Positions 14,611 through 39,116 of a stretch of DNA of 43,801 nucleotides are shown piece by piece. The DNA lies in IMG/VR virus record IMGVR_UViG_3300043448_000845, positions 1 to 43,801 of that record. The stretch is one strand, 5' to 3'. The stretch is from a virus. A program made the position numbers and the translations under genes. A model generated the notes under the pieces. It saw only the letters and a program-made list of their open reading frames with translations, was not told where the DNA came from and ran no database searches. Numbering within the stretch: position 1 is the stretch's first letter; each line of letters starts with the position of its first letter.

Positions 14611-17600
14611 TCTTAGTTTTACAACGAATAATCAGATAATTAGGGATCTATACGATACACCACAAGATGCTATTGATGCATCAAAAGCGCTTGGTTGTGA
14701 TGGGTATCGTACATATGTCATAAACGGTGACGTTAAATATGTACCGTGCTCATCTTTTGTGCAATATGAAAGAGCCTTGAGATATAGAACAGTGCAAGGC
14801 AAAATAGGTGCTTTTGGTAGCGATACTTTCGGTAGTAAATTAGTTGGTTTACAATTTGCTAATGCTAAAGACGAAATACAAGGTGATCCGTTTTTTACGT
14901 TAGGTAATTTTTCAATACAAAAAAGCGTACAGCAAGGGGCCCAAGCATCACAATTACAAATTCAGATAAATGAAGCCACACAAAATGACTCCGTAAAAAG
15001 TTTTACGGTTGATAGTATAGCACAAAGAAATTTACCTTATTTTGAAGGCAAAGAATATGTGCAAGCCTTAAAACAAAAAGTAACTGAAAATTTAACAGTA
15101 AAAGTATTATTTGACAGAAGAAAATTAGATAATTATGTTTTATTTTCATCGTTAAAAGAAAGATTAAAAAATGTTATTATTGAGATATATAATAATTTTC
15201 CAGGGGCAATAAAAGCCGAGCCAATCTCTATAACAACACCTTCCATTTCTAACTATGCGGTATATCCACTCGAAAACAGGTCTTCTTTTAAAGTAAATCT
15301 TTATGGTTTATTCAATCCATATGGTATTGAATATAATAGTTCTGGAAATACTTTAGATAACAGTGAAACTGTAACAAAATATAGAAATTTTACTAAAACA
15401 CATAAAGAATATGTTATATATTATAACGGAGTTGAATACCCTATAATTTCTGCGCAATTTCCACAAAATAATAATGACGATGCGACAGGTATTAGGTTAA
15501 CAGTGGATGGTAATCCTTTTGGGGATATTGTTGATGTAAACAATGTTGTTAACGTAAGATTTTATATAAAACCTAAAAGTAAAGTATACAATGATTTTTT
15601 TAATAATTTATCAGATTTAGCTTCGTTTCTTTTAAATAAAGATCCGAATACTGGTGAATATATTAGTGAGTTCGTTTATCCATCAGAAGATGATAGCGGA
15701 CAAGTGAGAACTGTTAAAGAAACTTTAATTTTTCCAATGTATGATGAGTTTAACATTGATATGTTTAGTAGCAAATTTGATAATTATACGACAACATTAA
15801 ATGATTTTGCTGATTCATATGATAGTATTAAAACAAATTTAATTTCAAGATTTTTAACAACCGATTCTTTAAAAGAATTTGACACAAGCGATCGTAAAGC
15901 TAATTTACTATTTCAATTGTACGGTAAAACATTTGATGATATTAAAAGATATATCGATGGTATAACTTTTATGCGAAATGTTACTTATGATAAAATTGAA
16001 AATGTTCCAGATCTTTTAATTAAAAATTATGCGACAATGCTCGGTTTCAATACATTTGAAATTGAAGATGAAAATACTTTAATCGATTCTTTGTTTTCAA
16101 CTGAACTTGATGATGTTGAAAAAGGTACAACACCAGCTGAAATTGACATCGAATTATGGAGAAGAATTTTAATTAACTCGTTTTATCTATACAAATCAAA
16201 AGGTACTAGAAAATCTATCGAGTTTATTTTGAGATTAGTTGGTTTACCTGACGAAATATTTGAGTTAAATGAATATGTTTATTTGGCTGAAAGACCTTTA
16301 AATACACCAGATGTTTTAAATAAAATTTATGGTCAGGCAATTATTGATGACCCAGAGATTTTAATACAAAGAGTGCCTTTTGATACAAAAGGTTTTCCAA
16401 CTACACCAATAAATGTTAAATATCAAGAAGACGGGGGTTACATTACAGAAGATAAGTTTAATATTGGTAGATTTGATTTTGGCCAAAGATATATTAATCA
16501 ATACAAAAAATATGAAAATGTTTTTCTTTTTGATGTGTATAGAACAATTGATAACGTAAAAAGTTGGGTATACAACGAAGTGCCAAGAACCTATTATAAA
16601 GATGACAGAAATGGCTTTACCGAATACGAATCAAATGATATTAGATTATCTATAAATTCTAAAGAGCTTGAGGTTTATTTATCATCAAATCGAATATTTG
16701 ATGTTCCCGTTTACAGGCAATACGCTAGAAATATAGGTATTGTTAACGCTGATTTAAATATATTAAATAAATTTAACTCAACAGATTTAACGTTTAATCA
16801 ATTTATTAAAAAATCGTTAGATACGTTTATAAACCCAAAAAATAGAAAAACGATTAAGACGTATCCAACATTATCGAAGATTTACTTTGATTATTTAAAA
16901 ACAACAACCACGCCAATTGACAGCATGAGAAGTTTAGAGTTTTTAAATAAATTTGATTCTTCGTGGGTTAAATTAATACAACAATTCGTACCAGCAACAT
17001 CTATTCTTAATGCTGGTAAAAAAATACAAAATTCAACTTTTTTAGATAATAAATTTGTATATAAACATGGTTTAAATAATGATGTATCTTGGTTGGGTAC
17101 GGATGGTTCTGAATTCCAACAAAAAGCACTTAAACCAGTTTATCTTGGAACAACAAATGTTACAGAAAATGTTGGGAAACTTGGGGCCAAAATTGATGGT
17201 GACCCAATAACGTTTAATATTTCGGGTAAACCAGGCGCCAAAATAACTGGAACAGACCCAACTATTAATGAATATTTTGGTGTTTACTATACGATGTTTG
17301 AGTATTGCGATGAAAGTGAGGGTAGTTTCCATATTTGGCAAAGCGGTATTGACTACGGGGATGATAGCTTATTTAATGGTAATATAAATCAATCTAGCTA
17401 TGTGTCATCAACTCAAAGATATGGTGTTTTTGTTATATACAATAGTAAGTTATATAGATTGAATACTAGGTACATGTTTAATGATACGGGTTCAATTCCC
17501 GACATACATACGGCTGGAACTGGGTCAACAATTGAAAGTAGATACCCGCCCAATAAAGCAACAGTAACAAACGCATCTGGTGATACCAGAATGATATGGG

Positions 17601-20600
17601 AACACGTACCAATTGATGTTGATTCTAGAACTATAACGTTTGCAGATACCTTGTCTTTAGACATTAGATCAATTGAAAGATCATATTATATGAACTCAAT
17701 TGGGCGTGGTTTAGCCTATTTGGGTATTCGGGTTAATTTTGATTGCCCACCACCAAGACCGCATGTTTGTTACTATGATTTTACTGGTAGAACAATTACA
17801 CCAGCTTTAGTACATAACACATTTAGGACTTATAATGATGAAGAAGGTATCACACAAACTATTAAACAACCTAGGTTTTATGGTTATAGTATGAACCACA
17901 CCCCATTAAGACCATCAGGATTAATTTATGGTGAAATATCAAAGTGGGCTACCCCATATGAAAAAAGATTTTCGTGGGCAACTGGATTTACGTATTATAA
18001 GGGAGAAATTATCGCAAATATACATCCAACAAATAAAGAAAATTTGGTTGTTGGTAGTAAAATATATTTAGTTACTGGAGACACATTTGAGGCAACGGGT
18101 ACAACATATCCAATTACAGCCCCAACTGGTTTAAAACACATAGCAACAGCAAATTCAGCGTCTTTTGTGAGTCCTGGAACTACTGGTGTGACCGTTAATT
18201 TATCAACAATTTCAACTGGAACCACTGGTGGTATGTATGAAAGATATCAGGATAGAACAAAAACGGATCCTTTTATGCATATTGATCCAGCTTATATTTC
18301 AAAAATTAAATTAGACCCAAGCAGGGCTTCATATTCGGTAAATTTAACAAAATCACTTAATTTAGGCCACATATTTAGTGGCGCAACACCACAAACAACA
18401 TATAAAGTAAAGGATAATATTATAAACGGTGAGCTATTTATATCAGATTCTGTGACTGTAAACTTTGAGGGTTTTTATGGGTTAGACCAAACAAAAATAG
18501 GCCCATTTTATACTTTAAATGATGATGGGGTATTTATTCACACTTTAGAAAATAGTATTCTTTTACAACCAAATTCAAACAACTATATATCAATTCAATC
18601 TTTAAATGAAAATTTTACAACAATTGGTAATGAGTTAAGTTTGGTAAATACAACACCAGGGCATTATTTAGTTGCAAAAAATAGTTATTTAAGTTTTAAA
18701 TTTGATTTATATTTCGAATCTATTGAAAATATAAATCAAACCATAAACATTAAATTGATAAATTCTTTAGGTTTTATTTATGATACCCAGTCATTTACAT
18801 TTAATGGATCTGACGATGCAAACTTAAGACAATATGTTTTTGAATATACTGGATTTTTTAATTCTGGTGAAAAAATTTATTTAGTCATTGAACCAATAGA
18901 TTTAGCTTGCACATTATCTAGATATGAAGAAATAGATTATATTCATGAAGAGGTCGATGAGGCTTCTTTTAATCAATTAAATGACCCTAGATTTAGAGTG
19001 TTATTAAATTCTGGATTTTCGGCCAGAGGTGAGTACTTAGATGGTTTATCGATTAAACCAATTTATAATTTATCAAATTTAGATACCAACAATTTAATAC
19101 TTAGATTAACAGAAAAAAAATATGTTAATGTTCCTTTTTTAAATATTGAGCATTCGATCGATCCTAATTATTATCACAATAAATTATTTTTATCTTATTT
19201 TGAAACCAATTCTCAAAATAACATTGTTTTTGACTCGAGTGAATACGATAAAAAGATAAATTTTGATAAGGTTAATTTCACCTTTACTATTAGAAGTAAA
19301 AGTGATAATTTTTCAACAACAGGCCTTGTTTCTGTTTCTGGCGGTAAAAACATAGGTGTAAAAACCGCAACTGTCGAACACGAATTAAATTTTAGTGATT
19401 ATTATTTGGGTAATTCTGTTAGACAAACTGATAATAATGATGTCACAAATGCGATAACAATCGGTAAAAATGTAAGAATTAGGCAAAACACGCATAACAG
19501 AGAATTTACTTACTCACCGAAGTATAGTTTTTACAACAATATTGAACTTGGTACGGCAACCAAAGATACTCTAGGTAGCTTTAAAGGTTATGATTTAGGA
19601 TTAAATGATTATACTCTGTTTAATTATGGAAACCCTATAATTAGTGAAATTAAAAACAAAAAAAGGTACTCTTTTAATTCATTAGGTACGTCATCATATA
19701 GCTTATACAAATTAGAAAATGATGTGTATAACACTGAAATTTATAAAAAAATACTTGATGTCGTACCAGAATTTAATGCCCAAATAGTTAACTATGAATT
19801 AAATGATATTGTAAAAGTTAATATTGATGACTATAAAATTGTGGTGGATAGCCCAACGGGTCAAACTGTACAAACAAATTCGGTTTATAGGTTATATGTG
19901 TGTGTTAACGATATTAACATTGATCATTGCTACAAATTAGAAGATACGTCAGCTTCGACACTCGTCCAAGGTGAAATACACGAAATTTATAGACCAAGGG
20001 GGTCGAGATCATGTTTTATTGAAATTGAAAAATATAACCCAACTAATTTCACACCATGGGGTTATGAACACTCACCGTTACTAACAACAAGTAACCCAAA
20101 TGTTTCGGATTATATTAATAAAAATTTTATAAGCTATGACCCAACGGTTGTAAGTGAATATAATTTTGGGGATATAATTTTAGGTTCATATCCAAATCCT
20201 GGGGGTAGTGACGAATTTTTTAGGTTCATATATCAAAAGCCGCTAAAATGGGATTCAACTAAAAAGTATTTTAAAGGTGATTTTGTTTTGTCTGGAGTTA
20301 CCGATGAAACAGTATTAGCCCCAACCGTGTATAGATTTTTTGTGGCAAAAAAAGACCATACAAATGCCGCGCCATATCTTGCGACAAGTGGGTCAACTGG
20401 TACAACCGAATGGAGGCGTATAACTAGCGTTAACGATTTATTTGATCACAAATCACTTGGTGGTTTAACCAACTGGGTCGAATCTGTTGGTGGATCTTGG
20501 TTTCCGTTAGATGTGTATGTTGCGATACCAACAACGGCAGCGAGATTACCTAAAACACTACCTGTGAGTGAATTTGGTATACCATTTATATCAACTGGTA

Positions 20601-22267
20601 CAACTGTTTCTGGTGTAACATTTGGTGGTAGATGGAACGATGTTCTAATAAATGGTTATTGTTTTATGGATGATTCATACGTGTCCTATAACGAATACGA
20701 TGTAAATATTAATAAAAAAATATTAAGATCATATTTTAGTGCATTTTCTGGTCGTTATTACGGGCCAGACGCATACGTTCCATATTATCTACCGTATTCG
20801 GCATATAATTCTGGGACGCTATACGCACCAGGTGCCATTATAAAACATAATGATTTAACTTATAGAAAAATAAGTACAGCCGCAGCTGGCACACCGCCAG
20901 TTGTTGGGGTTGACTGGGAAGTTTATTATCCAGCACTTTTAGAATCAAATACTTATTACGAAACCGATAATTATAAGGATTATTTTAATCAGACCAGATT
21001 AAATAAAACAAATATAAAACTAAGACCATCATTTCCGTTAAATTCGTTTAATTATCTTACTTATTATCATCCATTTTTAACGGATTCATCTTCAATTTAT
21101 CCATTGTTTGAAAGAATTGGTAGATATACTGAAAAAAATAACCCAACGTTGTTTATTGCGGATGAAACAACTGGTATAACTTATGATAACACATCAAAAT
21201 ACATAGGTTACAAATATACAGTTAATAGAGGTGTTTTATATAAGTTTATTGGGGGTTCCCCATTGGGTACTTATCCAGCTCAACCTTTTGAAGATACTAC
21301 TAATTGGTCTGAGTCTGATTTTTGTTTGGTAAATAATTTTAAATTTTTTAAAGATAGAACACGAGTTACTGTATTTGAATCAAAGATAGAAAGTTTAACT
21401 AATTCAGTTAAAAAATCACTTCATTTTTTTAGAGATAATCTTACGTTAAAAAGTGGATTTACCAGTAGGTCATTTAGTGGATCCACAATTAATAATAAAC
21501 TAATATCTGGTTTAAATAAATTTTATGATGCGACCGACCCAAATAGAATTTCTGCTAACACAACAGGTTTAGTTGATTTTAGGGTTATTGGTAATGACGT
21601 TATAATGGATTATTTTCCGCAAAAAGATGAAGTTGGTTACCCATTAACGGGCGAGTTTATAGGAAAATTAAAAATTTCAAACCCATGTGGGAAAACAGCT
21701 ACAACAATATTTGGTGTTTTATTTGATACTGATATTGATAAATTAGATAGACAACAAGGTTTAACTCAAACTGCGAATTTTACACCAGAAGATATTGAAA
21801 TATTACCTTATACTGTAAGAGTTGTTGTTACACAAAATGGACAAGCTAATGCCACATTAACTATTAAACAAACTGATAATACGTTAGCGCAAAAAATCAC
21901 GTCTACAAGCGTAACTAAAAACACTGTATTTGATACTAAGTATGATGTTATACCAGAAACAAACTTTGAGGTTGAAATAACATACACCACTCAAAGAAAA
22001 CAAACAAAATTTGGCTCTGCTTTTGTTGATGCAACACCATTATTTGTTAATAATCAAGTGATAAATACAAATACAGTTCAGACAACATTTGTTCAAACAG
22101 CTAATTTAGAAACTAGAGTAATCACGTTGAAAAATGTGACCGCTAATAGAACAATATTTATTAATCTTAATGGTATTGTTTCAGTAACTGATGTTAAAAC
22201 TGATGTTGCAGATGCGACCGCAATTTTTAACGTAAAAGCGATTAATATTAATACAGCAACACTATAA
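14603..22267 (+). CDS. Giant baseplate/tail protein (2554 aa) with tail-protein-I-like region and carbohydrate-binding-like modules
   Basis: This is the largest gene in the window. Residues about 430-565 carry a conserved block: LLFQLYGKTFDDIKRYIDG, a long helix, then LYKSKGTRKSIEFILRLVGL, the pattern of P2 gpI/T4 gp7-type tail proteins that sit at the baseplate periphery. Further along are several short modules of the form Y-x-x-G-x-x-V...Y...P...W, as in chitin/cellulose-binding type 5/12 domains: near residues 935-1003, 1127-1185, 1883-1945, 2067-2115 and 2200-2238. The last 150 residues are Thr/Val-rich strands typical of Ig-like repeats. My reading is a wedge protein fused to a surface-binding extension. 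The family link of the first block is moderately sure, the sugar-binding role is inferred. Confidence 0.75.
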   Translation: MADLSFTTNNQIIRDLYDTPQDAIDASKALGCDGYRTYVINGDVKYVPCSSFVQYERALRYRTVQGKIGAFGSDTFGSKLVGLQFANAKDEIQGDPFFTLGNFSIQKSVQQGAQASQLQIQINEATQNDSVKSFTVDSIAQRNLPYFEGKEYVQALKQKVTENLTVKVLFDRRKLDNYVLFSSLKERLKNVIIEIYNNFPGAIKAEPISITTPSISNYAVYPLENRSSFKVNLYGLFNPYGIEYNSSGNTLDNSETVTKYRNFTKTHKEYVIYYNGVEYPIISAQFPQNNNDDATGIRLTVDGNPFGDIVDVNNVVNVRFYIKPKSKVYNDFFNNLSDLASFLLNKDPNTGEYISEFVYPSEDDSGQVRTVKETLIFPMYDEFNIDMFSSKFDNYTTTLNDFADSYDSIKTNLISRFLTTDSLKEFDTSDRKANLLFQLYGKTFDDIKRYIDGITFMRNVTYDKIENVPDLLIKNYATMLGFNTFEIEDENTLIDSLFSTELDDVEKGTTPAEIDIELWRRILINSFYLYKSKGTRKSIEFILRLVGLPDEIFELNEYVYLAERPLNTPDVLNKIYGQAIIDDPEILIQRVPFDTKGFPTTPINVKYQEDGGYITEDKFNIGRFDFGQRYINQYKKYENVFLFDVYRTIDNVKSWVYNEVPRTYYKDDRNGFTEYESNDIRLSINSKELEVYLSSNRIFDVPVYRQYARNIGIVNADLNILNKFNSTDLTFNQFIKKSLDTFINPKNRKTIKTYPTLSKIYFDYLKTTTTPIDSMRSLEFLNKFDSSWVKLIQQFVPATSILNAGKKIQNSTFLDNKFVYKHGLNNDVSWLGTDGSEFQQKALKPVYLGTTNVTENVGKLGAKIDGDPITFNISGKPGAKITGTDPTINEYFGVYYTMFEYCDESEGSFHIWQSGIDYGDDSLFNGNINQSSYVSSTQRYGVFVIYNSKLYRLNTRYMFNDTGSIPDIHTAGTGSTIESRYPPNKATVTNASGDTRMIWEHVPIDVDSRTITFADTLSLDIRSIERSYYMNSIGRGLAYLGIRVNFDCPPPRPHVCYYDFTGRTITPALVHNTFRTYNDEEGITQTIKQPRFYGYSMNHTPLRPSGLIYGEISKWATPYEKRFSWATGFTYYKGEIIANIHPTNKENLVVGSKIYLVTGDTFEATGTTYPITAPTGLKHIATANSASFVSPGTTGVTVNLSTISTGTTGGMYERYQDRTKTDPFMHIDPAYISKIKLDPSRASYSVNLTKSLNLGHIFSGATPQTTYKVKDNIINGELFISDSVTVNFEGFYGLDQTKIGPFYTLNDDGVFIHTLENSILLQPNSNNYISIQSLNENFTTIGNELSLVNTTPGHYLVAKNSYLSFKFDLYFESIENINQTINIKLINSLGFIYDTQSFTFNGSDDANLRQYVFEYTGFFNSGEKIYLVIEPIDLACTLSRYEEIDYIHEEVDEASFNQLNDPRFRVLLNSGFSARGEYLDGLSIKPIYNLSNLDTNNLILRLTEKKYVNVPFLNIEHSIDPNYYHNKLFLSYFETNSQNNIVFDSSEYDKKINFDKVNFTFTIRSKSDNFSTTGLVSVSGGKNIGVKTATVEHELNFSDYYLGNSVRQTDNNDVTNAITIGKNVRIRQNTHNREFTYSPKYSFYNNIELGTATKDTLGSFKGYDLGLNDYTLFNYGNPIISEIKNKKRYSFNSLGTSSYSLYKLENDVYNTEIYKKILDVVPEFNAQIVNYELNDIVKVNIDDYKIVVDSPTGQTVQTNSVYRLYVCVNDINIDHCYKLEDTSASTLVQGEIHEIYRPRGSRSCFIEIEKYNPTNFTPWGYEHSPLLTTSNPNVSDYINKNFISYDPTVVSEYNFGDIILGSYPNPGGSDEFFRFIYQKPLKWDSTKKYFKGDFVLSGVTDETVLAPTVYRFFVAKKDHTNAAPYLATSGSTGTTEWRRITSVNDLFDHKSLGGLTNWVESVGGSWFPLDVYVAIPTTAARLPKTLPVSEFGIPFISTGTTVSGVTFGGRWNDVLINGYCFMDDSYVSYNEYDVNINKKILRSYFSAFSGRYYGPDAYVPYYLPYSAYNSGTLYAPGAIIKHNDLTYRKISTAAAGTPPVVGVDWEVYYPALLESNTYYETDNYKDYFNQTRLNKTNIKLRPSFPLNSFNYLTYYHPFLTDSSSIYPLFERIGRYTEKNNPTLFIADETTGITYDNTSKYIGYKYTVNRGVLYKFIGGSPLGTYPAQPFEDTTNWSESDFCLVNNFKFFKDRTRVTVFESKIESLTNSVKKSLHFFRDNLTLKSGFTSRSFSGSTINNKLISGLNKFYDATDPNRISANTTGLVDFRVIGNDVIMDYFPQKDEVGYPLTGEFIGKLKISNPCGKTATTIFGVLFDTDIDKLDRQQGLTQTANFTPEDIEILPYTVRVVVTQNGQANATLTIKQTDNTLAQKITSTSVTKNTVFDTKYDVIPETNFEVEITYTTQRKQTKFGSAFVDATPLFVNNQVINTNTVQTTFVQTANLETRVITLKNVTANRTIFINLNGIVSVTDVKTDVADATAIFNVKAININTATL

Positions 22268-29825: not shown

Positions 29826-30425
29826 ATGAAAAAAGAGATACAAGAAGATTACTACTTACTTGGACTTGACGTATCGACAAAAACAATTGGCGTTGCGCTA
29901 TTCAACAATAAAGGACAACTTTTAGAATTAACACATATTTCACCAAAAGCAAAACCAACACCAGAAAGCAAAACTGAGGAGTTAATAAAAAAAGCTGACT
30001 TGTTTTCCGAATTTATTGAAAAATATTCTAAAATGAATATTAAACATATTTTAATTGAAGAGCCCTTACTAAGATCAAATAACGTAAATACTGTTGGCAC
30101 TTTATTAAGGTTTAATGGTATGGTTACAAAAATATGTTATGACAAACTTGGCGTGACGCCAGAATACATTAGTACGTATGAAGCGAGAAAGAATGCTTTT
30201 CCAGAATTAATGCAGCCAGGCGCGACAGGTAAAATTGTTTTATTCGGGGCATATCCAAAAGAAATTGACAAAAAACGAGTTGTTTGGGATAAGGTATCTA
30301 AGCGAGAACCAAAAATTAGTTGGCTTTTAGATAAAAAGGGGCAACTAAAAAAAGAAAATTTCGACATGTCTGACGCATACACCGTTTGTTTGTCATTTGC
30401 ACACATTAAAAATATTTTCGACTAA
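29826..30425 (+). CDS. RuvC-like Holliday junction resolvase
   Basis: This is a 199-residue nuclease of the RNase H fold that would cut four-way or branched DNA before packaging, the job endonuclease VII does in T4. The catalytic acids are visible: an Asp in LLGLDVSTKTIGVALF (residue about 15), a Glu in HILIEEPLLRS (about 78), and the D-x-x-D pair in NFDMSDAYTV near residues 179-182. The overall size is close to bacterial RuvC (about 170). It lies at the head of the recombination module and just before a promoter. A tRNA-threonylcarbamoyl or YqgF-type relative is less likely given the full acid set and gene context. Confidence 0.8.
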   Translation: MKKEIQEDYYLLGLDVSTKTIGVALFNNKGQLLELTHISPKAKPTPESKTEELIKKADLFSEFIEKYSKMNIKHILIEEPLLRSNNVNTVGTLLRFNGMVTKICYDKLGVTPEYISTYEARKNAFPELMQPGATGKIVLFGAYPKEIDKKRVVWDKVSKREPKISWLLDKKGQLKKENFDMSDAYTVCLSFAHIKNIFD

Positions 30426-30426
30426 A

Positions 30427-30459
30427 TTTGGTTTTTTTAAATTAATTGTGTATTTTTGC
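30427..30459 (+). promoter_or_regulatory. Bacteroidota-type promoter before the primase
   Basis: TTTG at 30427-30430 and TATTTTTGC at 30451-30459 are 20 bases apart, an exact fit to the Bacteroidota housekeeping promoter pattern (TTTG, 19-21 bases, TAnnTTTG). The primase ATG is 15 bases further on, so the leader would be short. This implies the recombination module can be read by the unmodified host polymerase. Confidence 0.7.
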
Positions 30460-30474
30460 CTGAAATAGGCTTTA

Positions 30475-31452
30475 ATGTACGATTTGGACACCGATAGAAA
30501 ACACGAGCAACTTATTCAACTCCTTGAGGAATTTCTTGGTGAGCCTAGAAAGCATTACGCAACTAAAGGCCAAGTTTCTTTTGATTGTCCCAGCTGTTCG
30601 GCTATGAAGGGCGTTGAATTTGATGGCAAAGGCAACCTTGAAGTTAACTACGATATGGGTGTTTATAATTGTTGGTCTTGCGCTGAAACACATGGAACCA
30701 AAGGTAAAATTTATAATTTATTTAAAGAATTTGCGGACAGGGAACTTTTAAGACGTTTTGTTGGCGGTAAGTTTACATTTACTGGGGATTATTATGCCAC
30801 TAAAGAATTTTTACCTAAAAAAGAACTTTTAAAGTTACCGACCGAATATTTTCAACTAGCTGGCAAACAAAATTATCGTGATTTTAAGCCAGCTTTTTCT
30901 TATTTATATGGGCGTGGTATTACCGATGATTTAATTGAGAAATATAAAATAGGGTTTTGCCTTGGGGGTAAATATCAAAATCGAGTTGTTATACCATCAT
31001 TTGATAAAGAAGGGGATCTTAATTATTTTGTAACTCGCTCCATTTCAAAATACACAAAAAAATATAAATACCTTAATCCTGAGGTTGATAAAACTGAGAT
31101 AATTTTTAATGAAAATTTAATCGACTGGAATAAAGCTATATTTTTGGTTGAGGGTGCATTTGACCATATAGTGGTACCAAATAGTATCGCATTACTTGGG
31201 AAAAAACTTTACGATAAATTATTTTCTGAACTTTATTTTAAAGCTAATAGTCTTATTATTATAGTTTTAGACCCAGATGCTCGTGAAGATGCTATTAAAA
31301 TTTTTAATAAATTAAATGCGGGTAGGTTGAGAAAGAAAATTTTATTAAATTTGATGCCATCAGACCATGATGTGTCGAGTTTCAACCAAACATATGGTCA
31401 AGAACAATTAAAAACATGGCTTAAACAAAAAAATTATAGATTAAATGATTAG
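30475..31452 (+). CDS. DNA primase, DnaG/T4 gp61-like
   Basis: This enzyme makes RNA primers for lagging-strand synthesis together with the DnaB-like helicase. A zinc-binding domain is at the N-terminus with cysteines at about residues 38, 41, 66 and 69 (CPSC and CWSC). The TOPRIM catalytic domain follows, with the Glu strand FLVEGAFDH near residue 222 and the acidic strand IIIVLDPDARED near 261. The 325-residue length fits phage primases (T4 gp61 is 342). A Bacteroidota-type promoter lies directly upstream, and its stop overlaps the next start by eight bases. Confidence 0.92.
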   Translation: MYDLDTDRKHEQLIQLLEEFLGEPRKHYATKGQVSFDCPSCSAMKGVEFDGKGNLEVNYDMGVYNCWSCAETHGTKGKIYNLFKEFADRELLRRFVGGKFTFTGDYYATKEFLPKKELLKLPTEYFQLAGKQNYRDFKPAFSYLYGRGITDDLIEKYKIGFCLGGKYQNRVVIPSFDKEGDLNYFVTRSISKYTKKYKYLNPEVDKTEIIFNENLIDWNKAIFLVEGAFDHIVVPNSIALLGKKLYDKLFSELYFKANSLIIIVLDPDAREDAIKIFNKLNAGRLRKKILLNLMPSDHDVSSFNQTYGQEQLKTWLKQKNYRLND

Positions 31453-32182
31453 ATTAATAGCAGAAACACATACATATGTGAATGATTTAGCACCGAATTG
31501 CAAATACACTTCGGTTACAACTATGTTGGGTAATTACAAAGATAAATTCGATGAGGATTATCACGCAGAAAGAGTTGCACAAAAGAAGGGTGTGACAAAA
31601 CAAGAAATTATTGCCGAATGGCGAGAGATTAACAGATTGGCCAATGAGTATGGGACGAATTTACATGAAATTCTTGAGAGGTTCTTGTTGGCCCCCAAAA
31701 GATTATATTCACCAAGGGACGATTTTGAGAGAAGCGTTATAAATGCTTTTAGAATGGTTTGCGATGAAGAGAGTTTGAATCTTTTACAAAACGATGATAT
31801 TAAACCAGAACATATAATGTCAATCGAGTTTACCCCAGAAAAGGGTATTGCTGGAACATCCGATATTATTGAGGATTTACCGAACAACATGTTTAATGTA
31901 TGGGATTTCAAAACGAATAAAAAGTTTGAATTTGAAAATAGATATGGGGAATATTTACATTTTCCAGTGAGCCACTTACCACATTGCCAATATAATGATT
32001 ACACATTGCAGTTATCTGTGTATGGTGTGATGTATGAAAGGGAAACGGGTAGAAAATTTAACAGAGGTGGATTATTTTATTGGGACAAATTCACACAAAC
32101 ATTCAGATTAATACCAATTGGGTATATGAAAAGAGAAGCTGAGATGCTTATAGAACATTTTAAAATTAAATTATTATCATAA
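31445..32182 (+). CDS. PD-(D/E)XK family nuclease
   Basis: This 245-residue protein has the RecB/Cas4-like nuclease pattern. The motifs are visible in order: NLHEILERFL near residue 75 (a conserved His helix), a Glu in SIEFTPEKGIAGTSDII, the D-x-K core in WDFKTNKKF near residue 157, and the Gln helix TLQLSVYGVMYE near 190. It would act as an exonuclease or flap/recombination nuclease. Its position between primase and the gp47/gp46 pair, with overlaps on both sides, suggests it works in the same DNA repair or replication pathway. T4 uses different nucleases here. Confidence 0.85.
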   Translation: MIRLIAETHTYVNDLAPNCKYTSVTTMLGNYKDKFDEDYHAERVAQKKGVTKQEIIAEWREINRLANEYGTNLHEILERFLLAPKRLYSPRDDFERSVINAFRMVCDEESLNLLQNDDIKPEHIMSIEFTPEKGIAGTSDIIEDLPNNMFNVWDFKTNKKFEFENRYGEYLHFPVSHLPHCQYNDYTLQLSVYGVMYERETGRKFNRGGLFYWDKFTQTFRLIPIGYMKREAEMLIEHFKIKLLS

Positions 32183-32985
32183 TGATACAAAAGATCGTAC
32201 ACATCGCTGACATTCATTTTAGAAACTTTCAGCGACACATTGAATTTAGGGCGATATGTGAAAATTTTATCGACCAAATGAAATTCGTTAAACCAGATAG
32301 GATTGTTATTGCTGGTGACATTGTTCATTCCAGGAATCAAATAAGTCCCGAGTTAGTTAATGAAGTTTCGTGGTTTTTAAATGAATGCTCAAAACTAACA
32401 GGTAAAGTTGTTATTATTCCAGGTAATCACGATATTGTTGAGCAGAATAAAGAGCGAATGGATGCGTTAACACCCATCATAAATGCATTGGATGTTGAAA
32501 ACATTATATACTACACTAAATCTGATGTTTTTATTGATGAGAATGTTGCTTGGGTTGTGTATTCAATCTATGACAACAATATGACACCAGAGGCCGCAAT
32601 GTTAAACACGTACCCAGAAAAAGTTAAAATTGGGTTGTACCATGGTATTATTAATGGTGCAACAAATAACTTAGGATTCACTTTTTTACATGGCGCTGAT
32701 GTTGAAAAATTTAATGTTTGTGACGTTGTTCTTTGTGGTGATATACACAAAAGACAAGTGTTGCAAACTAAAAAAGGTGTTCATGTAATTATGCCAGGTA
32801 GTTTTATCCAACAAGATTTCTCTGAAACAATATCCGAGCACGGATATAATACGTTGAGGGTTGACAGCAATAAAGTATTGTCATATGATTTTACGGATAT
32901 CGAAAACCCAATAAAATATCTTAACTTTAAGATAAACGATTTTGAAGATATTGAAAACGGAAATGAGCAACTCACTAACGCTTAA
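32182..32985 (+). CDS. gp47: Recombination nuclease subunit, T4 gp47-like (SbcD/Mre11)
   Basis: This is the nuclease subunit of the gp46/gp47 complex, which resects DNA ends for recombination-dependent replication. All five metallophosphatase motifs are visible: HIADIHF, IAGDIVHS, IIPGNHDI, YHGIING and LCGDIHKRQ. The length of 267 residues is a little shorter than T4 gp47 (339), mainly by a smaller C-terminal cap. It begins on the last base of the nuclease stop codon and overlaps the following small gene by 23 bases. Confidence 0.93.
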   Translation: MIQKIVHIADIHFRNFQRHIEFRAICENFIDQMKFVKPDRIVIAGDIVHSRNQISPELVNEVSWFLNECSKLTGKVVIIPGNHDIVEQNKERMDALTPIINALDVENIIYYTKSDVFIDENVAWVVYSIYDNNMTPEAAMLNTYPEKVKIGLYHGIINGATNNLGFTFLHGADVEKFNVCDVVLCGDIHKRQVLQTKKGVHVIMPGSFIQQDFSETISEHGYNTLRVDSNKVLSYDFTDIENPIKYLNFKINDFEDIENGNEQLTNA

Positions 32986-33283
32986 TATAAAAAAACAATT
33001 ACACGATGACATAAAACTATATTGTGAGGTAAATAATATAGAAAATATTGATTTGTTCTGCACCGAGTTACTCGAGAAGGGGTTTATGGTGGAAAAATAT
33101 GGCACGGCGCCTGAGTTTGTAAAAAATGTGGAAAAAAAACCAGAGCCTGTGGTGTATGAACCAGAAAAACCCTTATCTTTGCCAGAACAACCAAAAATAC
33201 CAGAGCCACCAAAAGAAGAACCTAAAAAAGTATTTAAAAAAGCAACATTAAATGATGATTACAGAGTCTACGATAAAATCTAA
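32963..33283 (+). CDS. Small unknown protein between gp47 and gp46 (106 aa)
   Basis: The start is placed at the ATG at 32963 (MSNSLTLNI); an upstream TTG at 32942 is less likely because it would deepen the overlap. It overlaps gp47 at its start and gp46 at its end by 32 bases. Residues 1-50 (LTLNIKKQLHDDIKLYCEVN, then a helix ending FCTELLEKGFMV) look like a strand-helix-helix arrangement of the kind seen in ribbon-helix-helix DNA-binding proteins. The second half is a Pro/Glu/Lys-rich linker (EPEKP, PEQPK, PEPPK) followed by a basic end. T4 also has small genes here (46.1, 46.2). A partner or regulator of the nuclease is possible, not shown. Confidence 0.7.
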   Translation: MSNSLTLNIKKQLHDDIKLYCEVNNIENIDLFCTELLEKGFMVEKYGTAPEFVKNVEKKPEPVVYEPEKPLSLPEQPKIPEPPKEEPKKVFKKATLNDDYRVYDKI

Positions 33284-35645
33284 GTTAGCTGACGAACAGA
33301 TATACGACAGCAATAATTATATTAAGGTAATTTGGGAAGATACCTTAGATAACCATTCTAATCATAAAGAAAAGCAAATTGAGAAGTATTTCCAAACGAA
33401 ATATAAAACCAATAAGGTAAAAGTTATATTTAAACCAATCACATCTAAAAATTCAAGTGTTGTGGTTGAAGGAGCCGCTGACGCTTCCGAATTGGTGTTG
33501 GATGAAAATTACCAAAAATCGCTTATTGAGCAATATATTAAAGATAATAATATATCAGTATCTTTAGCACATTTAATGAAACTTGACTCATCTGTTAATC
33601 TTGAACTCGAAAATTATAAGGAACACACTAATAGGTATAAGACTTTTAAAATTAAAGAAATAGAGTTTTCAAATTTCCTATCTTACGGTAAAAACAATAA
33701 GATAACCTTTGAGGACAAGAATGGTATTACATCGGTTATATCCGACCCACCAAACTACGGTGGTAAGACAACATTAACCGTTGATTTATTATTGTTTCTT
33801 TTCTTTGGCACAACCACCAAAACGGATAAAAATGAAGAAATCTTCAATCGTTTTAGTGAAGATGATTTGGTTGAGGTCAAAGGTAAGGTTGATATTGAGG
33901 GTGACACGTATATTATTAAAAGAACCATAAGTAGAAAAAAATCAAAAGATGGCCATACATGCAAGGGTGAGGTTGATTTTTATCAAGTACTACCAAGAGG
34001 TGGTGTAAAACAACTCAATGGTGAACAACGTAAATTTACTGATGAATTAATTAAGACTTATGTTGGAACCTACGATGATTTTTTAATCACGATTCTTACA
34101 ACGGGTGACAACCTGGATGATCTCATAAAAACAAAACCAACCGAAAGAGGTAGGATTTTAACCAGATTTATTGGTTTGGAATTTTTCCGTGAAAAAGAGA
34201 AGATTGCTAAGAAAAAGCACACCGAGTGGAAAGAAAAATCTAAGTTGTATCATAATAATAGTCAGGAGATTTTAGCTAAAATTGATACCGAAAATGATAA
34301 AATAGGGCAAAATGAGCTAATGATTATCTCACAAAAACAAACTGAAGATAATTATAAGATACAGATAGATGGTTTAAATAAATCACGCGAAGAACTATTT
34401 AAAACAAGGTACAACGATATCGATAGTGAGTTGTATAAGTTGGATGAAGAGACTATTCAGTCTGGTATAAATAAAGTTGAGGGTTTGGTTACGCAAAAAA
34501 CTAATGAAATAAAAACACTGGAATCGCAAATACCGATACCAGGTGAGGAATATGATATTGATTTTTATGGCACACAAAAGTTGGCTCTGAAAGAAAATAC
34601 AGAAGCTGAAATCACATTGCGTCTTGAAATAAACTCAACCAGTCAAACAATTGACATGCTAAAGAACAGCGAGATTTGCCAAACATGTAAAAGACCTTTG
34701 GATCATGTTGACCACAAAAAAGAAATTGCTGATAACGAAAAATTACTTTCAAGCAAACAAACTGAATGGGAACTTGTGAAACAAAAAATTGTTGAAATAA
34801 CAACTTCAATGAATCATATGGATGAGATAAAAAACAAATGGGATTCTTATAACAGAAATATCCTATTAGTTGATAAAGCCAAAGTTGAACTTAAAGCATA
34901 TGAGGATAGTTTGAGCCGTGGTTTGGAAAAGTTAAACCAATATCGTAAGATAAAAGCGATGGTGGATAAAAATAAATTGATTGACACTGACATTCAAACG
35001 ATAAAATTTAAGATTGATGGTTTGGATCAGGATAAAAATATGGTATCTTTGCAAATCAAAAGTCTTGAAAAAGATATTGAGTTATCTAAAAGTAAAATAG
35101 ATGAGTATAACGGTTTGTTGAAAGAACTTAAAAACGAAGAGATGATCGATAATATATTCAAAATCTACTTGGATGTATATGGTAAAAACGGTATCTCTAA
35201 AATGGTTCTGGGCACTATGATACCTTTAATAAACAGTCACTTAAAGATATTACTTTCAGATACATGTGAGTTCATATTGGAGATGAGAATGAATGAAAAA
35301 AGTGAGGTTGAGTTTTGGATGGTTGACCAGGCAACTGGAATTGAGAAACCACTCAATGCTGGGTCTGGTTATGAAAAAACGGTTAGTTCGTTAGCCCTTA
35401 GATGTGTGTTGAGTAAAGTTTGTTCGTTACCAAAACCAAATATCATAGTGTTTGATGAGGTCACTGGTAAGGTATCAAATGAAAATCTGGATAAGATTGG
35501 GTTGTTTTTTGATAAACTTAAACAATTTTTTGACCACATTTGGGTTATTAGTCACAACCCACTAATTCAGGATTGGGCTGACCATATGGTTAAAGTTAAA
35601 AAAAATGACAACATATCGACTTTAGTTGAAAATATAATTGAATGA
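33252..35645 (+). CDS. gp46: Recombination ATPase subunit, T4 gp46-like (SbcC/Rad50)
   Basis: This is the SMC-like ATPase that pairs with gp47. Its Walker A is at about residue 165 (SDPPNYGGKTT), its Walker B at about residue 735 (IIVFDEVTGK), and the ABC signature is replaced by NAGSGYEKTVSSLALR near residue 700. Long coiled-coil arms fill the middle, with a zinc hook CQTCKRP at Cys476 and Cys479. The switch His is in WVISHNPL. The N-terminal ~135 residues before the ATPase domain are an extra segment not usual in T4 gp46 (560 residues). The first Gly of the P-loop is Pro. It overlaps the upstream gene by 32 bases. Confidence 0.92.
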   Translation: MMITESTIKSKLADEQIYDSNNYIKVIWEDTLDNHSNHKEKQIEKYFQTKYKTNKVKVIFKPITSKNSSVVVEGAADASELVLDENYQKSLIEQYIKDNNISVSLAHLMKLDSSVNLELENYKEHTNRYKTFKIKEIEFSNFLSYGKNNKITFEDKNGITSVISDPPNYGGKTTLTVDLLLFLFFGTTTKTDKNEEIFNRFSEDDLVEVKGKVDIEGDTYIIKRTISRKKSKDGHTCKGEVDFYQVLPRGGVKQLNGEQRKFTDELIKTYVGTYDDFLITILTTGDNLDDLIKTKPTERGRILTRFIGLEFFREKEKIAKKKHTEWKEKSKLYHNNSQEILAKIDTENDKIGQNELMIISQKQTEDNYKIQIDGLNKSREELFKTRYNDIDSELYKLDEETIQSGINKVEGLVTQKTNEIKTLESQIPIPGEEYDIDFYGTQKLALKENTEAEITLRLEINSTSQTIDMLKNSEICQTCKRPLDHVDHKKEIADNEKLLSSKQTEWELVKQKIVEITTSMNHMDEIKNKWDSYNRNILLVDKAKVELKAYEDSLSRGLEKLNQYRKIKAMVDKNKLIDTDIQTIKFKIDGLDQDKNMVSLQIKSLEKDIELSKSKIDEYNGLLKELKNEEMIDNIFKIYLDVYGKNGISKMVLGTMIPLINSHLKILLSDTCEFILEMRMNEKSEVEFWMVDQATGIEKPLNAGSGYEKTVSSLALRCVLSKVCSLPKPNIIVFDEVTGKVSNENLDKIGLFFDKLKQFFDHIWVISHNPLIQDWADHMVKVKKNDNISTLVENIIE

Positions 35646-36247
35646 TAACTTACTTTTTATTTAAAATTAGATATTATATATGGCTTAGTTTAAGTAAGCT
35701 ATTTCAACCCAAAAGGCATGAATATATCATGTTCTTTTTAGGTAGGTACCCGCAAAATTTTAAACATGGGTTTAAGGCTGTCCTTGATGCACAATCAATG
35801 TTTAGATATAGTATAGGTTCAGCTTGTATTGTCATAAGATTTAATACCACAAAAAATCTGTTTGAGGCACAAGAAATTTTTAATAAAGTATATCAGGGAT
35901 ATATGGATAGTTTTTTTATTTTTGATGCAAAAAGTAAACACGCTAAAACTATGGATCGGGTACATTATAAACACTTATATGATCCAACAACTGAATTAAA
36001 AACTCCGACAGAGGCTTTAAATAGAATACAAGAATTTATTGAGGTGCTACAACAAATGAAGTATACTTTTATGCGTTTAATACAAGAGCACCAAGATATT
36101 GAGACCGAAACAAATTTAGTGAGTAACTCAGATGATGTTATTACTATGGACGACATTGATCCGATTCTAGAAAAAATTAAAGAATCTGGGATTGAAAGTT
36201 TAACCGAAAAAGAAAAATTAATCCTTAAAAAATATACAAAAGAATGA
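35642..36247 (+). CDS. Unknown protein between gp46 and the sigma factor (201 aa)
   Basis: I do not recognise the body of this protein. It begins in an ATGA overlap with gp46 and ends in an ATGA overlap with the sigma gene. The first 20 residues are aromatic and hydrophobic (YFLFKIRYYIWLSLSK), either a membrane-touching helix or part of a longer leader, since a second Met occurs at residue 30 (MFFLGRYP). The last 33 residues (IDPILEKIKESGIESLTEKE and a basic end) closely resemble the short C-terminal motif of Bacteroidota rhomboid proteins (ILDKI...G..SLT..E). Position next to the sigma gene could point to a transcription accessory protein, but nothing in the sequence proves it. Confidence 0.65.
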   Translation: MITYFLFKIRYYIWLSLSKLFQPKRHEYIMFFLGRYPQNFKHGFKAVLDAQSMFRYSIGSACIVIRFNTTKNLFEAQEIFNKVYQGYMDSFFIFDAKSKHAKTMDRVHYKHLYDPTTELKTPTEALNRIQEFIEVLQQMKYTFMRLIQEHQDIETETNLVSNSDDVITMDDIDPILEKIKESGIESLTEKEKLILKKYTKE

Positions 36248-37041
36248 TCAAAGATACTTCACACTGGATTGACCAATCCGAAATTAACCTTTACCTTTAT
36301 GATGTTAGAAAATACCCAGCACTAACACGTGAGGAGGAATTTAAACTAATTGATAAAATAAAGACAGGGTGTCAAAAGTCCAAAGATTTATTAATTTATT
36401 CAAATTTAAGGTTTGTTATATCAATGGCAAAACAATATCAAAATCAAGGTTTGTCCCTATCTGATTTGATATCCGAAGGTAATTATGGTTTGATTAAAGC
36501 CGCTGAGCGCTATAATTATGATCAAACCAATGTTAGATTCCTTTCTTATGCGGTTTGGTGGGTAAAACAAAGTATGCTGCAATCATTACATGAAAACTCC
36601 AGGGCAATTCGTCTGCCAGTGAATATTATTAATGAAATGAATAAGTTGCGTAAAGAGACACCAAAAGAGTATAGTGCGGACGAGAACGAAACACCAACCA
36701 GTATCCTTGGTTTACCAACAATAACATACTTAGACGCACCTTTTGACGATGAAGGTAATTCGATGTACGATGTGATTGAGGATGTTAATTCGAAAAGACC
36801 CGATTTGATTTTTTCTGACGATCATGATTCGTTAATTAATAGACTTAAAATAGTTTTATCTAATTTAACGGATTCTGAGCAATACGTTGTAACCAAGTAT
36901 TTTGGTTTAGATGGGGAGCCCTTGACGTTACAGGATATATCTGAGGAACTTAACCTAACAAAAGAGCGTGTTCGCCAGATAAAAGAAAAGGCGATTAAAA
37001 AATTAAGGTTCTATTCTAAGGAATTATTTGAACTCTTATAA
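36244..37041 (+). CDS. Phage sigma factor, RpoD-like (Bacteroidota type)
   Basis: This 265-residue protein is a full sigma-70 family factor without region 1.1, the layout of Bacteroidota RpoD (about 287 residues). Region 1.2 is near residues 12-40, region 2 near 52-117 (SNLRFVISMAKQYQNQGLSL, SEGNYGLIKAAERY, SYAVWWVKQSMLQSL), region 3 begins about 118 (NSRAIRLPVNI) and region 4 is at 202-258 with the helix-turn-helix TLQDISEELNLTKERVRQIK. It should guide host RNA polymerase to phage promoters. It lies close to gp46/gp47, as gene 55 does in T4, but is far more like a complete host sigma than gp55. ATGA overlap with the preceding gene. Confidence 0.92.
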   Translation: MIKDTSHWIDQSEINLYLYDVRKYPALTREEEFKLIDKIKTGCQKSKDLLIYSNLRFVISMAKQYQNQGLSLSDLISEGNYGLIKAAERYNYDQTNVRFLSYAVWWVKQSMLQSLHENSRAIRLPVNIINEMNKLRKETPKEYSADENETPTSILGLPTITYLDAPFDDEGNSMYDVIEDVNSKRPDLIFSDDHDSLINRLKIVLSNLTDSEQYVVTKYFGLDGEPLTLQDISEELNLTKERVRQIKEKAIKKLRFYSKELFELL

Positions 37042-37049
37042 AACTCTAA

Positions 37050-37063
37050 ATATTTATTAATAA
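37050..37063 (+). promoter_or_regulatory. Candidate phage late promoter before the accessory/lysis block
   Basis: ATATTTATTAATAA (37050-37063) lies in the 38-base gap after the sigma gene, about 29 bases before the next ATG, and shares the TATTTATTAATAA core with 27663. Promoter role inferred. Confidence 0.45.
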
Positions 37064-37079
37064 GGCAAAATACTAAATT

Positions 37080-37421
37080 ATGGAAAAAATTAAAAATTTT
37101 TTTAATAAGTATGGAATGATTAGTGTTATTTTTTTAATACTAGTTATGTCCATGCAAAATTGCAGTAAAAACGGTAAGATTAAAAGGTTAACTAAAGAAC
37201 GTGATATTCTTCAGGTTCAAAATGATAGTTTACAAACTTTAATACCAACCGAAAATAACATGTTAATTATTCAGTATAAAGCTGAATTTGGTGTTTACAA
37301 CAAATTAAATAATGAAATGTCTAAATTAAATAGACAAGAACAGATGATGAGTTTTCAAAATCAGTTCATTATTCCACCAAAAGAAGAATTAGAAAATAAA
37401 ATAAATGAATTAGAAAAATAA
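37080..37421 (+). CDS. Small membrane-anchored coiled-coil protein (113 aa)
   Basis: One hydrophobic helix at about residues 13-26 (MISVIFLILVMSMQ) is followed by a basic stretch (KNGKIKRLTK) and a coiled-coil of heptad type rich in Leu, Asn and Glu. There is no strict lipobox, although a Cys follows the helix (MQNCSK). It could be an inner-membrane protein with a periplasmic coiled-coil, such as a third spanin-type or lysis-control protein, or a lipoprotein under the looser Bacteroidota rule. It is the first gene after the sigma factor and follows a candidate late promoter. Function unknown. Confidence 0.65.
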   Translation: MEKIKNFFNKYGMISVIFLILVMSMQNCSKNGKIKRLTKERDILQVQNDSLQTLIPTENNMLIIQYKAEFGVYNKLNNEMSKLNRQEQMMSFQNQFIIPPKEELENKINELEK

Positions 37422-37425
37422 GAAA

Positions 37426-38937
37426 ATGTTTAAAGTAATTGATTCAACGACTAATGAGGCCATTGGGTTAAAAAGTACAACCGATAGATACGGACAAAAA
37501 AGAATTTTTGTTGTATCGGATAATCCAGATAAAAGAGAAGCTGGTAATGAAACGTTTAAAACCAAAGACGTATTCAAAAAGTATGGGGCTGCTTGGGATA
37601 ACGATGAAAAGCATTGGTACTGGAATGATAGATTCAAAAGTGCTGATGAGATAGCTAAAATGGCTAATGACGCTGTTAAAACGGCCAATCAAATATTAGG
37701 CGCTGACATTTCTGGTAGACCAGAGGTAACTAAATTTGATGATGTTGAATCATTAGTTAAAGCTAAAGAATTCTTGGAGACCGTAAAAGGTACTCTTGAA
37801 TTTGTTAAATCAAAATCTGGGAAAGTTACTTTAGACTTGATTAATGACTATATTGATCAGTTAGCTGATAGTTTGGACGATCAAAAATTATTGGATGATA
37901 TTGCTGAGTTTAACAAAGCGGCTAAGGCTTATATTTTAGATACTGGTAGATATTCATATAGTTTTTTCAATACATTCATGATATGGTTACAAGCAACCAA
38001 GGGGGCCAAAGAATTTGGTTCGGTACCATATTGGTTGGGTAGAGGTTATGAACCTAAACCAGATGCTAGAAAAATTATGATTTTAAAACCAGGTGGAACT
38101 GGTAGTTTAGCGAGTAACGTTGCCAGAATCATTAAAGATCATCCGAAATCACCGCAAGAGTATGCTGCTGAAAGTGGTACATTTAAAATCACAGATCCTA
38201 ATAACCCAATTCCAAAAGAAAAGCATAATGCGTTTTGGAACTGGGCTTTGAAAAAGGGATATGTTAAATTTAAAGGTACGAGTCAATTCACGGAAGTTGC
38301 AATTTATGATAATGCAAACGTACAACCAATACCTGGTGTAGAACAAATTAATGCACCTGAACCCCCAAAGTGGTATAATGACGATGATACTGAGGACGAA
38401 AAGTCAAGAGTTATGATTGAAGCCTTAAAAGCTTTTTCAGAAGATAATGGTATTAGAATTAAACAATCGGATGATTTAGGTGGTGCGAGAGGTGTTAGCA
38501 AAGGTGGTCACATTGAGTTATTAACAAATAGTGTTGGCGCTGGATTATTATCAACATTTGTTCATGAGTTGGCACATGAGATTTTACACCAGCCAGCTAA
38601 TAAAGGATTAGCTAATGGTAAATTATTCATTGGTAGAGAATTCTCATCGGAAGAAAAAGAACTACATGCTGAAGCTGTTGCTTATACTGTGATGAAAACT
38701 TATGAGTTTCCTATCGAACATTCAATTAATTATTTAGCTTTATGGAAACAAAATAAAGATAAGGTTAAAGCCTTCCAAAAGGTTATTAGAGAAACATCAA
38801 TGTTTATTATTCAACAGATTGAAAAGTATGCGCCAAACGTTGAGGGTGGCGCGACTCCTGGTGAAACCAATGTTGCTGAATCCTTAAACGAAATCAAATC
38901 AATAATTAACAGATTTAAAGAATTAATCACATATTAA
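37426..38937 (+). CDS. ardC: ArdC-like antirestriction protein with metallopeptidase domain
   Basis: The protein has three visible parts. Residues 42-68 (FKTKDVFKKYGAAWDNDEKH, WYW) match a small domain found in front of many plasmid ArdC-type proteins. Residues about 160-225 (YSYSFFNTFMIWLQATKGA, WLGRGYEPKPDARKIMILKP) fit the ArdC N-terminal ssDNA-binding domain. Residues 370-420 form a zinc metallopeptidase with HELAHEILH (His380, Glu381, His384) and a likely third ligand in ELHAEAVAY. ArdC protects incoming DNA from restriction; here it would shield injected phage DNA. The last 20 residues (VAESLNEIKSIINRFKELI) form a separate amphipathic helix. A general ImmA/IrrE peptidase is the alternative. 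Confidence 0.82.
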   Translation: MFKVIDSTTNEAIGLKSTTDRYGQKRIFVVSDNPDKREAGNETFKTKDVFKKYGAAWDNDEKHWYWNDRFKSADEIAKMANDAVKTANQILGADISGRPEVTKFDDVESLVKAKEFLETVKGTLEFVKSKSGKVTLDLINDYIDQLADSLDDQKLLDDIAEFNKAAKAYILDTGRYSYSFFNTFMIWLQATKGAKEFGSVPYWLGRGYEPKPDARKIMILKPGGTGSLASNVARIIKDHPKSPQEYAAESGTFKITDPNNPIPKEKHNAFWNWALKKGYVKFKGTSQFTEVAIYDNANVQPIPGVEQINAPEPPKWYNDDDTEDEKSRVMIEALKAFSEDNGIRIKQSDDLGGARGVSKGGHIELLTNSVGAGLLSTFVHELAHEILHQPANKGLANGKLFIGREFSSEEKELHAEAVAYTVMKTYEFPIEHSINYLALWKQNKDKVKAFQKVIRETSMFIIQQIEKYAPNVEGGATPGETNVAESLNEIKSIINRFKELITY

Positions 38938-38939
38938 TC

Positions 38940-39116
38940 ATGGATAACTTAGAAAAATTAAATAGGTTGATCGCGCAGGTTGATGCGAGAATCGAACAGA
39001 TAGATGAGACCACATTAAATGAGGATCAAAAAAACATGTTGCAAGAGTTTAAATCTAGGAATTTAAAACAACAAGCTGCTATTGCGATAGCAAAAAAAGA
39101 AAAAGAAAACAATTAA
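38940..39116 (+). CDS. Small charged helical protein (58 aa)
   Basis: A short frame from ATG at 38940 to TAA at 39114-39116 fills the gap between ardC and the membrane protein gene, with two bases on either side. The product (MDNLEKLNRLIAQVDARIEQ, then more charged helix ending IAIAKKEKENN) is one long amphipathic helix and probably a coiled-coil. The tight fit between neighbours on the same strand is the main support. Function unknown. Confidence 0.65.
   Translation: MDNLEKLNRLIAQVDARIEQIDETTLNEDQKNMLQEFKSRNLKQQAAIAIAKKEKENN

Follow-up and report, generated by a model that had tools for sequence, protein, structure and literature searches.

An RpoD-type sigma factor lacking the sigma3 domain beside gp46 in large T4-like phages, and its possible role alongside a putative gp55-like sigma factor

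An RpoD-type sigma factor of 265 amino acids is encoded by an ORF with an ATG start at 36244-37041 (+ strand) of the DNA that we analysed, a virus record of 43.8 kb (hereafter the window) that is listed as linear and as a probable fragment. Its gene is a conserved neighbour of the primase, gp47 and gp46 genes in a large phage group comprising at least two clades. It shares contigs with the gene for a second, putative sigma factor, which we call gp55-like. The two main promoter-like motifs of these genomes lie mostly before different genes, and most of the residues with which RpoD contacts promoters are kept. From these observations we infer binding to the core polymerase, the pairing of each sigma factor with its promoters and the timing of their use, including the lateness of one promoter class. 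In our preferred reading, to which we give a probability of about 0.55, the RpoD-type protein would replace or compete with host RpoD at early and replication-stage promoters, and the gp55-like protein would read the late ones.

The window matches a 298.8-kb contig (G001) at 94% DNA identity across 43.0 kb. Genes for a baseplate, ribonucleotide reductase, helicase, gp46, gp47 and primase mark it as part of a T4-like contractile phage; names of gene functions derive from a hand-picked list of T4 genes and genes of Flavobacterium phage immuto. The nearest relatives of the ribonucleotide reductase are in Cellulophaga and Tenacibaculum phages. This kinship, a sigma factor of Bacteroidota type and many promoter-like sites of Bacteroidota type make Bacteroidota the likely host phylum of this large phage. 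A DNA-level search of a phage collection with positions 34000-39000 of the window gave no match, and neither did a search of the collection with the RuvC protein. Two very long ORFs were also observed, one of 2554 aa at 14603-22267 of the window, which has no PHROG match, and one of 5316 aa at G001:139607-155557.

Domains and relatives of the RpoD-type sigma factor

A preliminary description of this DNA had called the protein a host-like sigma factor of the RpoD type, distinct from T4 gp55, and our analysis bears this out. The Pfam models Sigma70_r2 (6e-13) and Sigma70_r4 (2e-14) match above their cut-offs, the PHROG match is phrog_351, 'RNA polymerase sigma factor' (2e-56), and SigA and RpoS chains are the top PDB sequence matches. 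At E<=0.001 there is no match to phrog_234, which we established as the T4 gp55 family with T4 gp55 itself as the query, and unlike T4 gp55 the protein has a region 4.

Pfam and alignment delimit region 2 (aa 51-120; 36394-36603, + strand), which holds the segments for core binding and -7/-10 recognition, and region 4 (aa 204-255; 36853-37008, + strand), with the -33/-35 recognition helix. Region 1.2 (aa 15-35; 36286-36348, + strand) was placed by a Sigma70_r1_2 match that falls just below the cut-off (E 5e-4; 20.5 bits against 22 bits). Residues 138-191 (36655-36816, + strand) form a mostly low-confidence linker with a 3.2-like loop, LDAPFDDEGNSMYDVIED, in place of the sigma3 domain. Of the full set of regions originally proposed, regions 2 and 4 and a 3.2-like loop are thus present, region 1.2 is borderline, and the sigma3 domain (regions 3.0-3.1) of primary sigma factors is absent.

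The predicted model of the protein (mean pLDDT 67) aligns to sigma factors. Its best structural match is 8x6f_E (Z 17.5, rmsd 22.8, 188 residues aligned), in which the domains are positioned differently; region 2 of the model, taken alone, aligns to 7n4e_F with an rmsd of 1.7 (Z 16.4, 108 residues aligned). Within the linker, residues 138-180 have pLDDT values <50, and the model contains no helix between 139 and 180. The short region 3 mentioned in the preliminary description is confirmed by the distance from the region 2.4 anchor to the 3.2 loop, which is 34-41 residues in all 47 distinct phage proteins compared and 54 residues in all 80 bacterial relatives (the best 80 of 563), as it likewise is in E. 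coli RpoD. We regard the window protein as derived from RpoD but, because of this short span and the missing helix, do not class it as a full primary sigma factor.

Residues in regions 2.4 and 4.2 of sigma-70 read the -10 and -35 elements of promoters. Seven of these, Y430, W433, W434, Q437, E585, R588 and Q589 (E. coli positions), are identical in 47/47 phage proteins and in 80/80 bacterial proteins (the best 80 of 563). The position of R584, which aligns with Lys240 of the window protein (codon 36961-36963), is Lys in every one of the 47 phage proteins and Arg in every one of those 80 bacterial proteins (again the best 80 of 563), and the position of R436 is Lys in 32 of the 47. The promoter contacts said earlier to be conserved are therefore kept at seven positions, with R584 replaced throughout and R436 in most of the phage proteins.

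Most of the 47 phage proteins end in (L/I)F(E/D/N)xx (LFELL, LFDYM and the like). In T4, the clamp-binding tails of gp55 and gp43 end in SLDFLYEAND and SLDFLFG, respectively. A reading of the LFELL end as such a tail was not retained, as it sits where RpoD normally ends and the DNA polymerases of this phage group end differently.

Among bacterial proteins, Bacteroidota-type RpoD shares 41-47% identity with the window sigma over the best segment (best 80 of 563 genome matches, which include a few from phyla neighbouring Bacteroidota). The two are alike in having regions 2, 3.2 and 4, a region 1.2 that is borderline in the window protein, and most promoter-contact residues. Besides the longer span of 54 residues and the Arg residues at 584 and 436, Bacteroidota RpoD differs in its C-terminus and in its place in the tree. 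With E. coli RpoD as the root, the phage sigma factors form a single clade (99/95) that is sister to the bacterial RpoD-type clade (98/95); an earlier tree, which carried long-branch warnings, gave supports of 90/91 and 90/96 for the phage and bacterial clades. Forty-one of the 80 bacterial rows (from the best 80 of 563) went into the first tree, and 27 of these 80 into the second, which also took in nine loci of paralogues and 17 of the 33 sigma factors of the sister clade; alignment A2 held 30 of 79 loci. A search of viral contigs gave 20 loci, one of them weak, and one further search was read from the best 80 of 107.

The existence of one phage clade next to the bacterial RpoD-type clade makes a single old capture of a bacterial RpoD by this phage group plausible. 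No sampled host lineage encloses the phage clade, so the tree points to no particular donor. The capture of a host sigma factor proposed previously fits this tree; its further part, that the captured protein stands in for gene 55, found no support. One 321-kb relative carries a third sigma-like ORF of 196 aa (G002:291904-292494, equivalent to L142:11904-12494), which matches phrog_351 at E 3e-5 and by eye resembles a small ECF-type factor.

Gene neighbourhood and a second, gp55-like protein

The sigma gene belongs to a run of genes on the + strand, most of which overlap or adjoin. A RuvC-like resolvase (29826-30425; PHROG) lies just upstream of a host-type promoter-like site, TTGGTTTTTT...TATTTTTG (30428-30458, + strand), which heads the run 17 bases before the primase start. 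Primase (30475-31452), a PD-(D/E)XK exonuclease (31445-32182) and a gp47/SbcD-like protein (32182-32985), all identified with Pfam and PHROG, are followed by a gp46/SbcC-like protein (33252-35645; PHROG), ORF201 (35642-36247) and the sigma gene, whose start ORF201 overlaps. ORF201 has a C-terminal DUF6576 stretch (Pfam, 5.6e-9) and adjoins the sigma gene in 13 of 16 relatives' loci.

Among the best 80 of 463 loci from a gp47-seeded search of viral contigs, taken together with L019 and L020, 74 hold gp46, some of them near-copies, and 60 of the 74 also hold the sigma gene. In the other 14 the DNA stops 0-3.6 kb past gp46, within 220 bases in 11 of them. Given both observations, the place of the sigma gene beside gp46 is not due to chance. 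Contigs of relatives with this arrangement reach 321 kb. The likeness to T4 gene 55, to which the preliminary description had drawn attention, is real as regards position, since the sigma gene follows gp47 and gp46 and, in T4, some 3 kb separate gene 55 from gene 47; in both cases the protein is a sigma factor of a T4-like phage.

A protein of 237 aa encoded outside the window (G001:113621-114334) is a candidate second sigma factor. Its similarity to the T4 gp55 family is weak, with E-values to phrog_234 of 4e-4 to 0.03 in 5/10 contigs and, protein by protein, of 0.0012 to 0.52 in 5/5. Pfam Sigma70_r2 is found in four of five gp55-like proteins, below the cut-off in every one; the immuto protein has no Pfam match. 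Profile-profile alignment of the family with T4 gp55 (hhalign) gave a probability of 5%, and a PDB profile search gave no useful match. The predicted structure (mean pLDDT 74) found nothing significant with Foldseek (E 3.4), and with VIA sigma factors made up 43 of the 50 rows listed, including the first 28. T4 gp55 (7d7c_F) was matched at Z 6.9 (rmsd 6.4, 118 residues aligned), and the best Z of 7.9 is middling for a helical protein. We name the protein gp55-like on the strength of the weak region 2 similarity and these structural matches to sigma factors.

A profile of the gp55-like protein matches 11 of 11 genomes tested, including immuto (E 1.8e-16), and a profile of the RpoD-type sigma factor matches seven of the same 11. 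The remaining four are immuto, a complete record and a single genome, and three contigs (G011-G013) that miss the whole operon. These three had been taken as genomes without the RpoD-type sigma, a reading that was withdrawn: the entire RuvC-primase-gp46 module is missing there, and the sigma factor is present in phages whose gp47 is similarly diverged. Likewise, a score of 0/15 contigs with the RpoD-type sigma in one search is no evidence of absence, which leaves immuto as the only genome regarded as lacking it.

Within the core clade, all seven examined contigs that carry the RpoD-type sigma also carry the gp55-like gene. In the sister clade this is so for five of ten contigs picked for carrying the RpoD-type sigma; in two of these the matches have identical coordinates, and the two contigs possibly represent one phage. 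The contigs without the gene have lengths of 120 to 200 kb and are possibly fragments. Twelve long contigs therefore have both sigma types, and the gp55-like gene is located away from the gp46 neighbourhood. Matches to gp45 and gp33, the partners of gp55 in T4 late transcription, were found in 0/10 contigs each, these contigs being incomplete and divergence high.

The stretch QDT(I/L)xx(L/F)(F/Y)TPS is conserved about 45 residues from the end of the DNA polymerase in G001, G002, G003, G004, G009 and G010; we take it to resemble a clamp-binding box. In G002 (141280-144626), two overlapping ORFs of 797 and 339 aa make up the DNA polymerase gene, which is one ORF in five other contigs. Proteins related to gp46 and to the gp55-like sigma are both encoded by Microcystis phage Mel-JY01 (PP395634), which may be related to this phage group despite its name.

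Two classes of promoter-like sites

ORFs were called by a simple script, and motifs were counted in the non-coding stretches ahead of genes, the control being the opposite strand of these stretches. Across six contigs, TANNTTTG occurs at 234 sites (85 on the opposite strand) and TATTTATA at 131 (49 on the opposite strand). We defined class A as TTG-N18-22-TANNTTTG and class B as [ACT]TATTTATA, without a strong -33 element; in class B, upstream signals amount to at most 0.34 bits beyond the base adjoining the box. When the count was made stricter and confined to sites before gene starts, with those fitting both directions scored as sense, the sum over seven carriers was 194 against 14 on the opposite strand for class A and 143 against 12 for class B. 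The corresponding values in the 294-kb sister contig G031 were 22 against 2 and 43 against 5, and those in immuto 0 against 2 and 25 against 7.

Bacteroidota promoters are reported to have a TAnnTTTG -7 box, with TANNTTTG as the host consensus (PMC9723704, of which part was available), and class A sites match this host type. They stand before the DNA polymerase gene in all seven carriers. By eye, a site of this type precedes the primase gene upstream of the sigma gene in 12/13 loci, and in the sister clade class A is found before primase in nine of 11 distinct upstream stretches. In G001, small ORFs are crowded together at about 186-216 kb, and class A sites fill this cluster; one genome has 68 of them before gene starts.

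Class B sites precede tail tube, terminase, head protease, scaffold, gp25-like baseplate or endolysin genes, each in at least one of the seven carriers. In G031 they are located before terminase, portal, protease and tail tube genes, and in immuto before those for terminase, portal, tail sheath, tube and tape measure. The class thus resembles the T4 late system in having a -10-like element without a strong -33 element before virion genes, and we take its lateness from this likeness. The split of the two classes between gene sets is not clean: class B is also found before RuvC in G002 and before DNA polymerase in G012 and G013, and many target genes of both classes have no known function.

A form of class A with TTG[GT]TT was seen in the core clade, where it occurs before 13 conserved genes at 33 of 47 class A sites, elsewhere at 30 of 75, and in the early cluster at none of 67; both the pattern and the list of 13 genes were picked after viewing the sites and counted afterwards, which makes the P values calculated for the split purely descriptive. 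Sister contig G031 shows no such division. Host control sites carried an extension of this type in 0/6 and 2/6 cases, too few to separate phage from host, and the proposal that this middle-promoter extension is specific to the phages was not kept. The early-region genes of immuto have, by eye, TTGC-~20 bases-TATATTTAGGTATC upstream, a variant of the host type, and many of its small early-like genes (NC_055915, about 62-77 kb) follow a promoter-like repeat, TTGC...TATATTTAGGTATCAATAATTAAAA.

Possible roles of the two sigma factors and known systems

In the preferred reading, the RpoD-type phage sigma would bind the RNA polymerase core of its presumed Bacteroidota host and steer it to promoters of the form TTTG, 19-20 bases, TANNTTTG on early and, above all, replication-stage genes. 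Its own operon would be among the targets, with possible self-amplification through the operon promoter, and host RpoD would be substituted or outcompeted during infection. Late virion genes would be read by the gp55-like minimal sigma from the one-element promoter TATTTATA. The RpoD-type sigma should read class A, because most of its promoter-reading residues are those of bacterial RpoD. Class B seems to fit a region-2-type factor such as gp55 better.

The preliminary description had instead proposed a takeover of late gene control by the RpoD-type sigma, which would make the gp55-like protein a relic or give it another role. Nearness to gp46 and gp47 as in T4 gene 55, the weak gp55-like scores and a C-terminus (LFELL, LFDYM) that can be read as a clamp-binding tail would favour this takeover. 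The tail is located at the normal RpoD end, however, and is unlike the polymerase C-terminus of the group. In addition, the late-type promoters have no strong element for region 4 to read, although the sigma retains that region, and they occur in immuto, which has no detected RpoD-type sigma. With the gp55-like profile matching every genome tested, and its gene present in all core-clade and half of the sister-clade contigs examined, we consider a takeover of late control very unlikely.

Other alternatives concern what the protein does at class A promoters, all of which host RpoD could read; it follows that no promoter class demonstrably needs the phage sigma. An abundant phage sigma might simply displace host RpoD from core, with no promoter class of its own, and serve chiefly as a weapon against host transcription that shifts transcription onto phage DNA. 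Such displacement would agree with the retention of most promoter contacts and with the large number of class A sites before gene starts, but an exact imitation of host specificity would not in itself protect phage promoters, and the invariant R584K substitution and the missing sigma3 domain suggest altered properties; we judge it unlikely. It is less likely still that host RpoD reads all of class A, leaving the phage sigma a small or conditional group of promoters outside those recognised here. The match of class A to the host consensus and the scarcity of host control sites would allow this, yet such a minor role is hard to reconcile with the retention of the gene beside gp46 in two clades.

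We also entertain, tentatively and with some doubt, a cascade of three sigma factors. Host RpoD would act early, on promoters with a TTTGC.. or TTTGGTGG.. extension; the phage RpoD, without sigma3 and with R584K, would then act on a middle promoter peculiar to the phage, with the extension TTTG[GT]TT[AT]TT, at replication genes and at its own operon, amplifying itself; and the gp55-like sigma would finally read the late promoters.

If the preferred reading is right, the phage protein is an RpoD trimmed in nature and predicted to function without sigma3 and with a changed -33-reading residue, a form common to all 47 distinct phage proteins in our comparison. Late control, by the gp55-like protein, would be set apart from this other phage sigma, and with distinct promoter types before different genes the order of events is open to direct test.

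The combination of an RpoD-like and a minimal sigma factor is already known from T4-type jumbo phages (PMC7824862, PMC5259590; statements on these and the T4 sources refer to the parts available). Jumbo phage vB_PcaM_CBB, which is T4-like, has a fuller, sigma-70-like factor (RpoD-like CBB_513), a gp55-like one (CBB_244) and three predicted promoter classes: RpoD-like promoters clustered in what is presumed to be the early region, a further RpoD-like promoter near DNA-synthesis genes whose -35 differs, and an ATAAATA motif before structural genes (PMC5259590). As here, gp33 and gp45 went undetected (PMC5259590). CBB differs in its enterobacterial hosts, in a sigma factor reported to have region 3, and in its motifs (-35 TGAAACG, late ATAAATA) (PMC5259590), whereas the window sigma is of Bacteroidota type, is without sigma3 and adjoins gp46/gp47. 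The 'group 2' jumbo phages have two sigma types, one near cellular RpoD and possibly derived from cells, and the Bacteroidetes phages Lak-B8 and Tenacibaculum PTM1 are assigned to group 2.2 (PMC7824862). As a difference, their minimal sigma is described as a single helix-turn-helix domain, and that review's account, in the part available, contains no sigma3 loss, operon or promoter classes (PMC7824862). T4 gp55 itself consists of a sigma2-like domain and a clamp-binding tail, and acts at promoters without a -35 element (PMC2988020, PMC7892883).

Little was found on phage transcription in Bacteroidota in the literature searched, and no description of this arrangement, of sigma3 loss or of such promoter classes in Bacteroidota phages came up in the partial texts covered, most subscription journals and bioRxiv lying outside the search. 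Matches to ribosomal protein S21 occur in five of ten contigs, three above the cut-off (all five: G001:291103-291255, G004:51409-51558, G011:112655-112807, G012:118324-118476 and G013:108280-108432), and recall the freshwater bS21 phages in the available part of PMC9723584.
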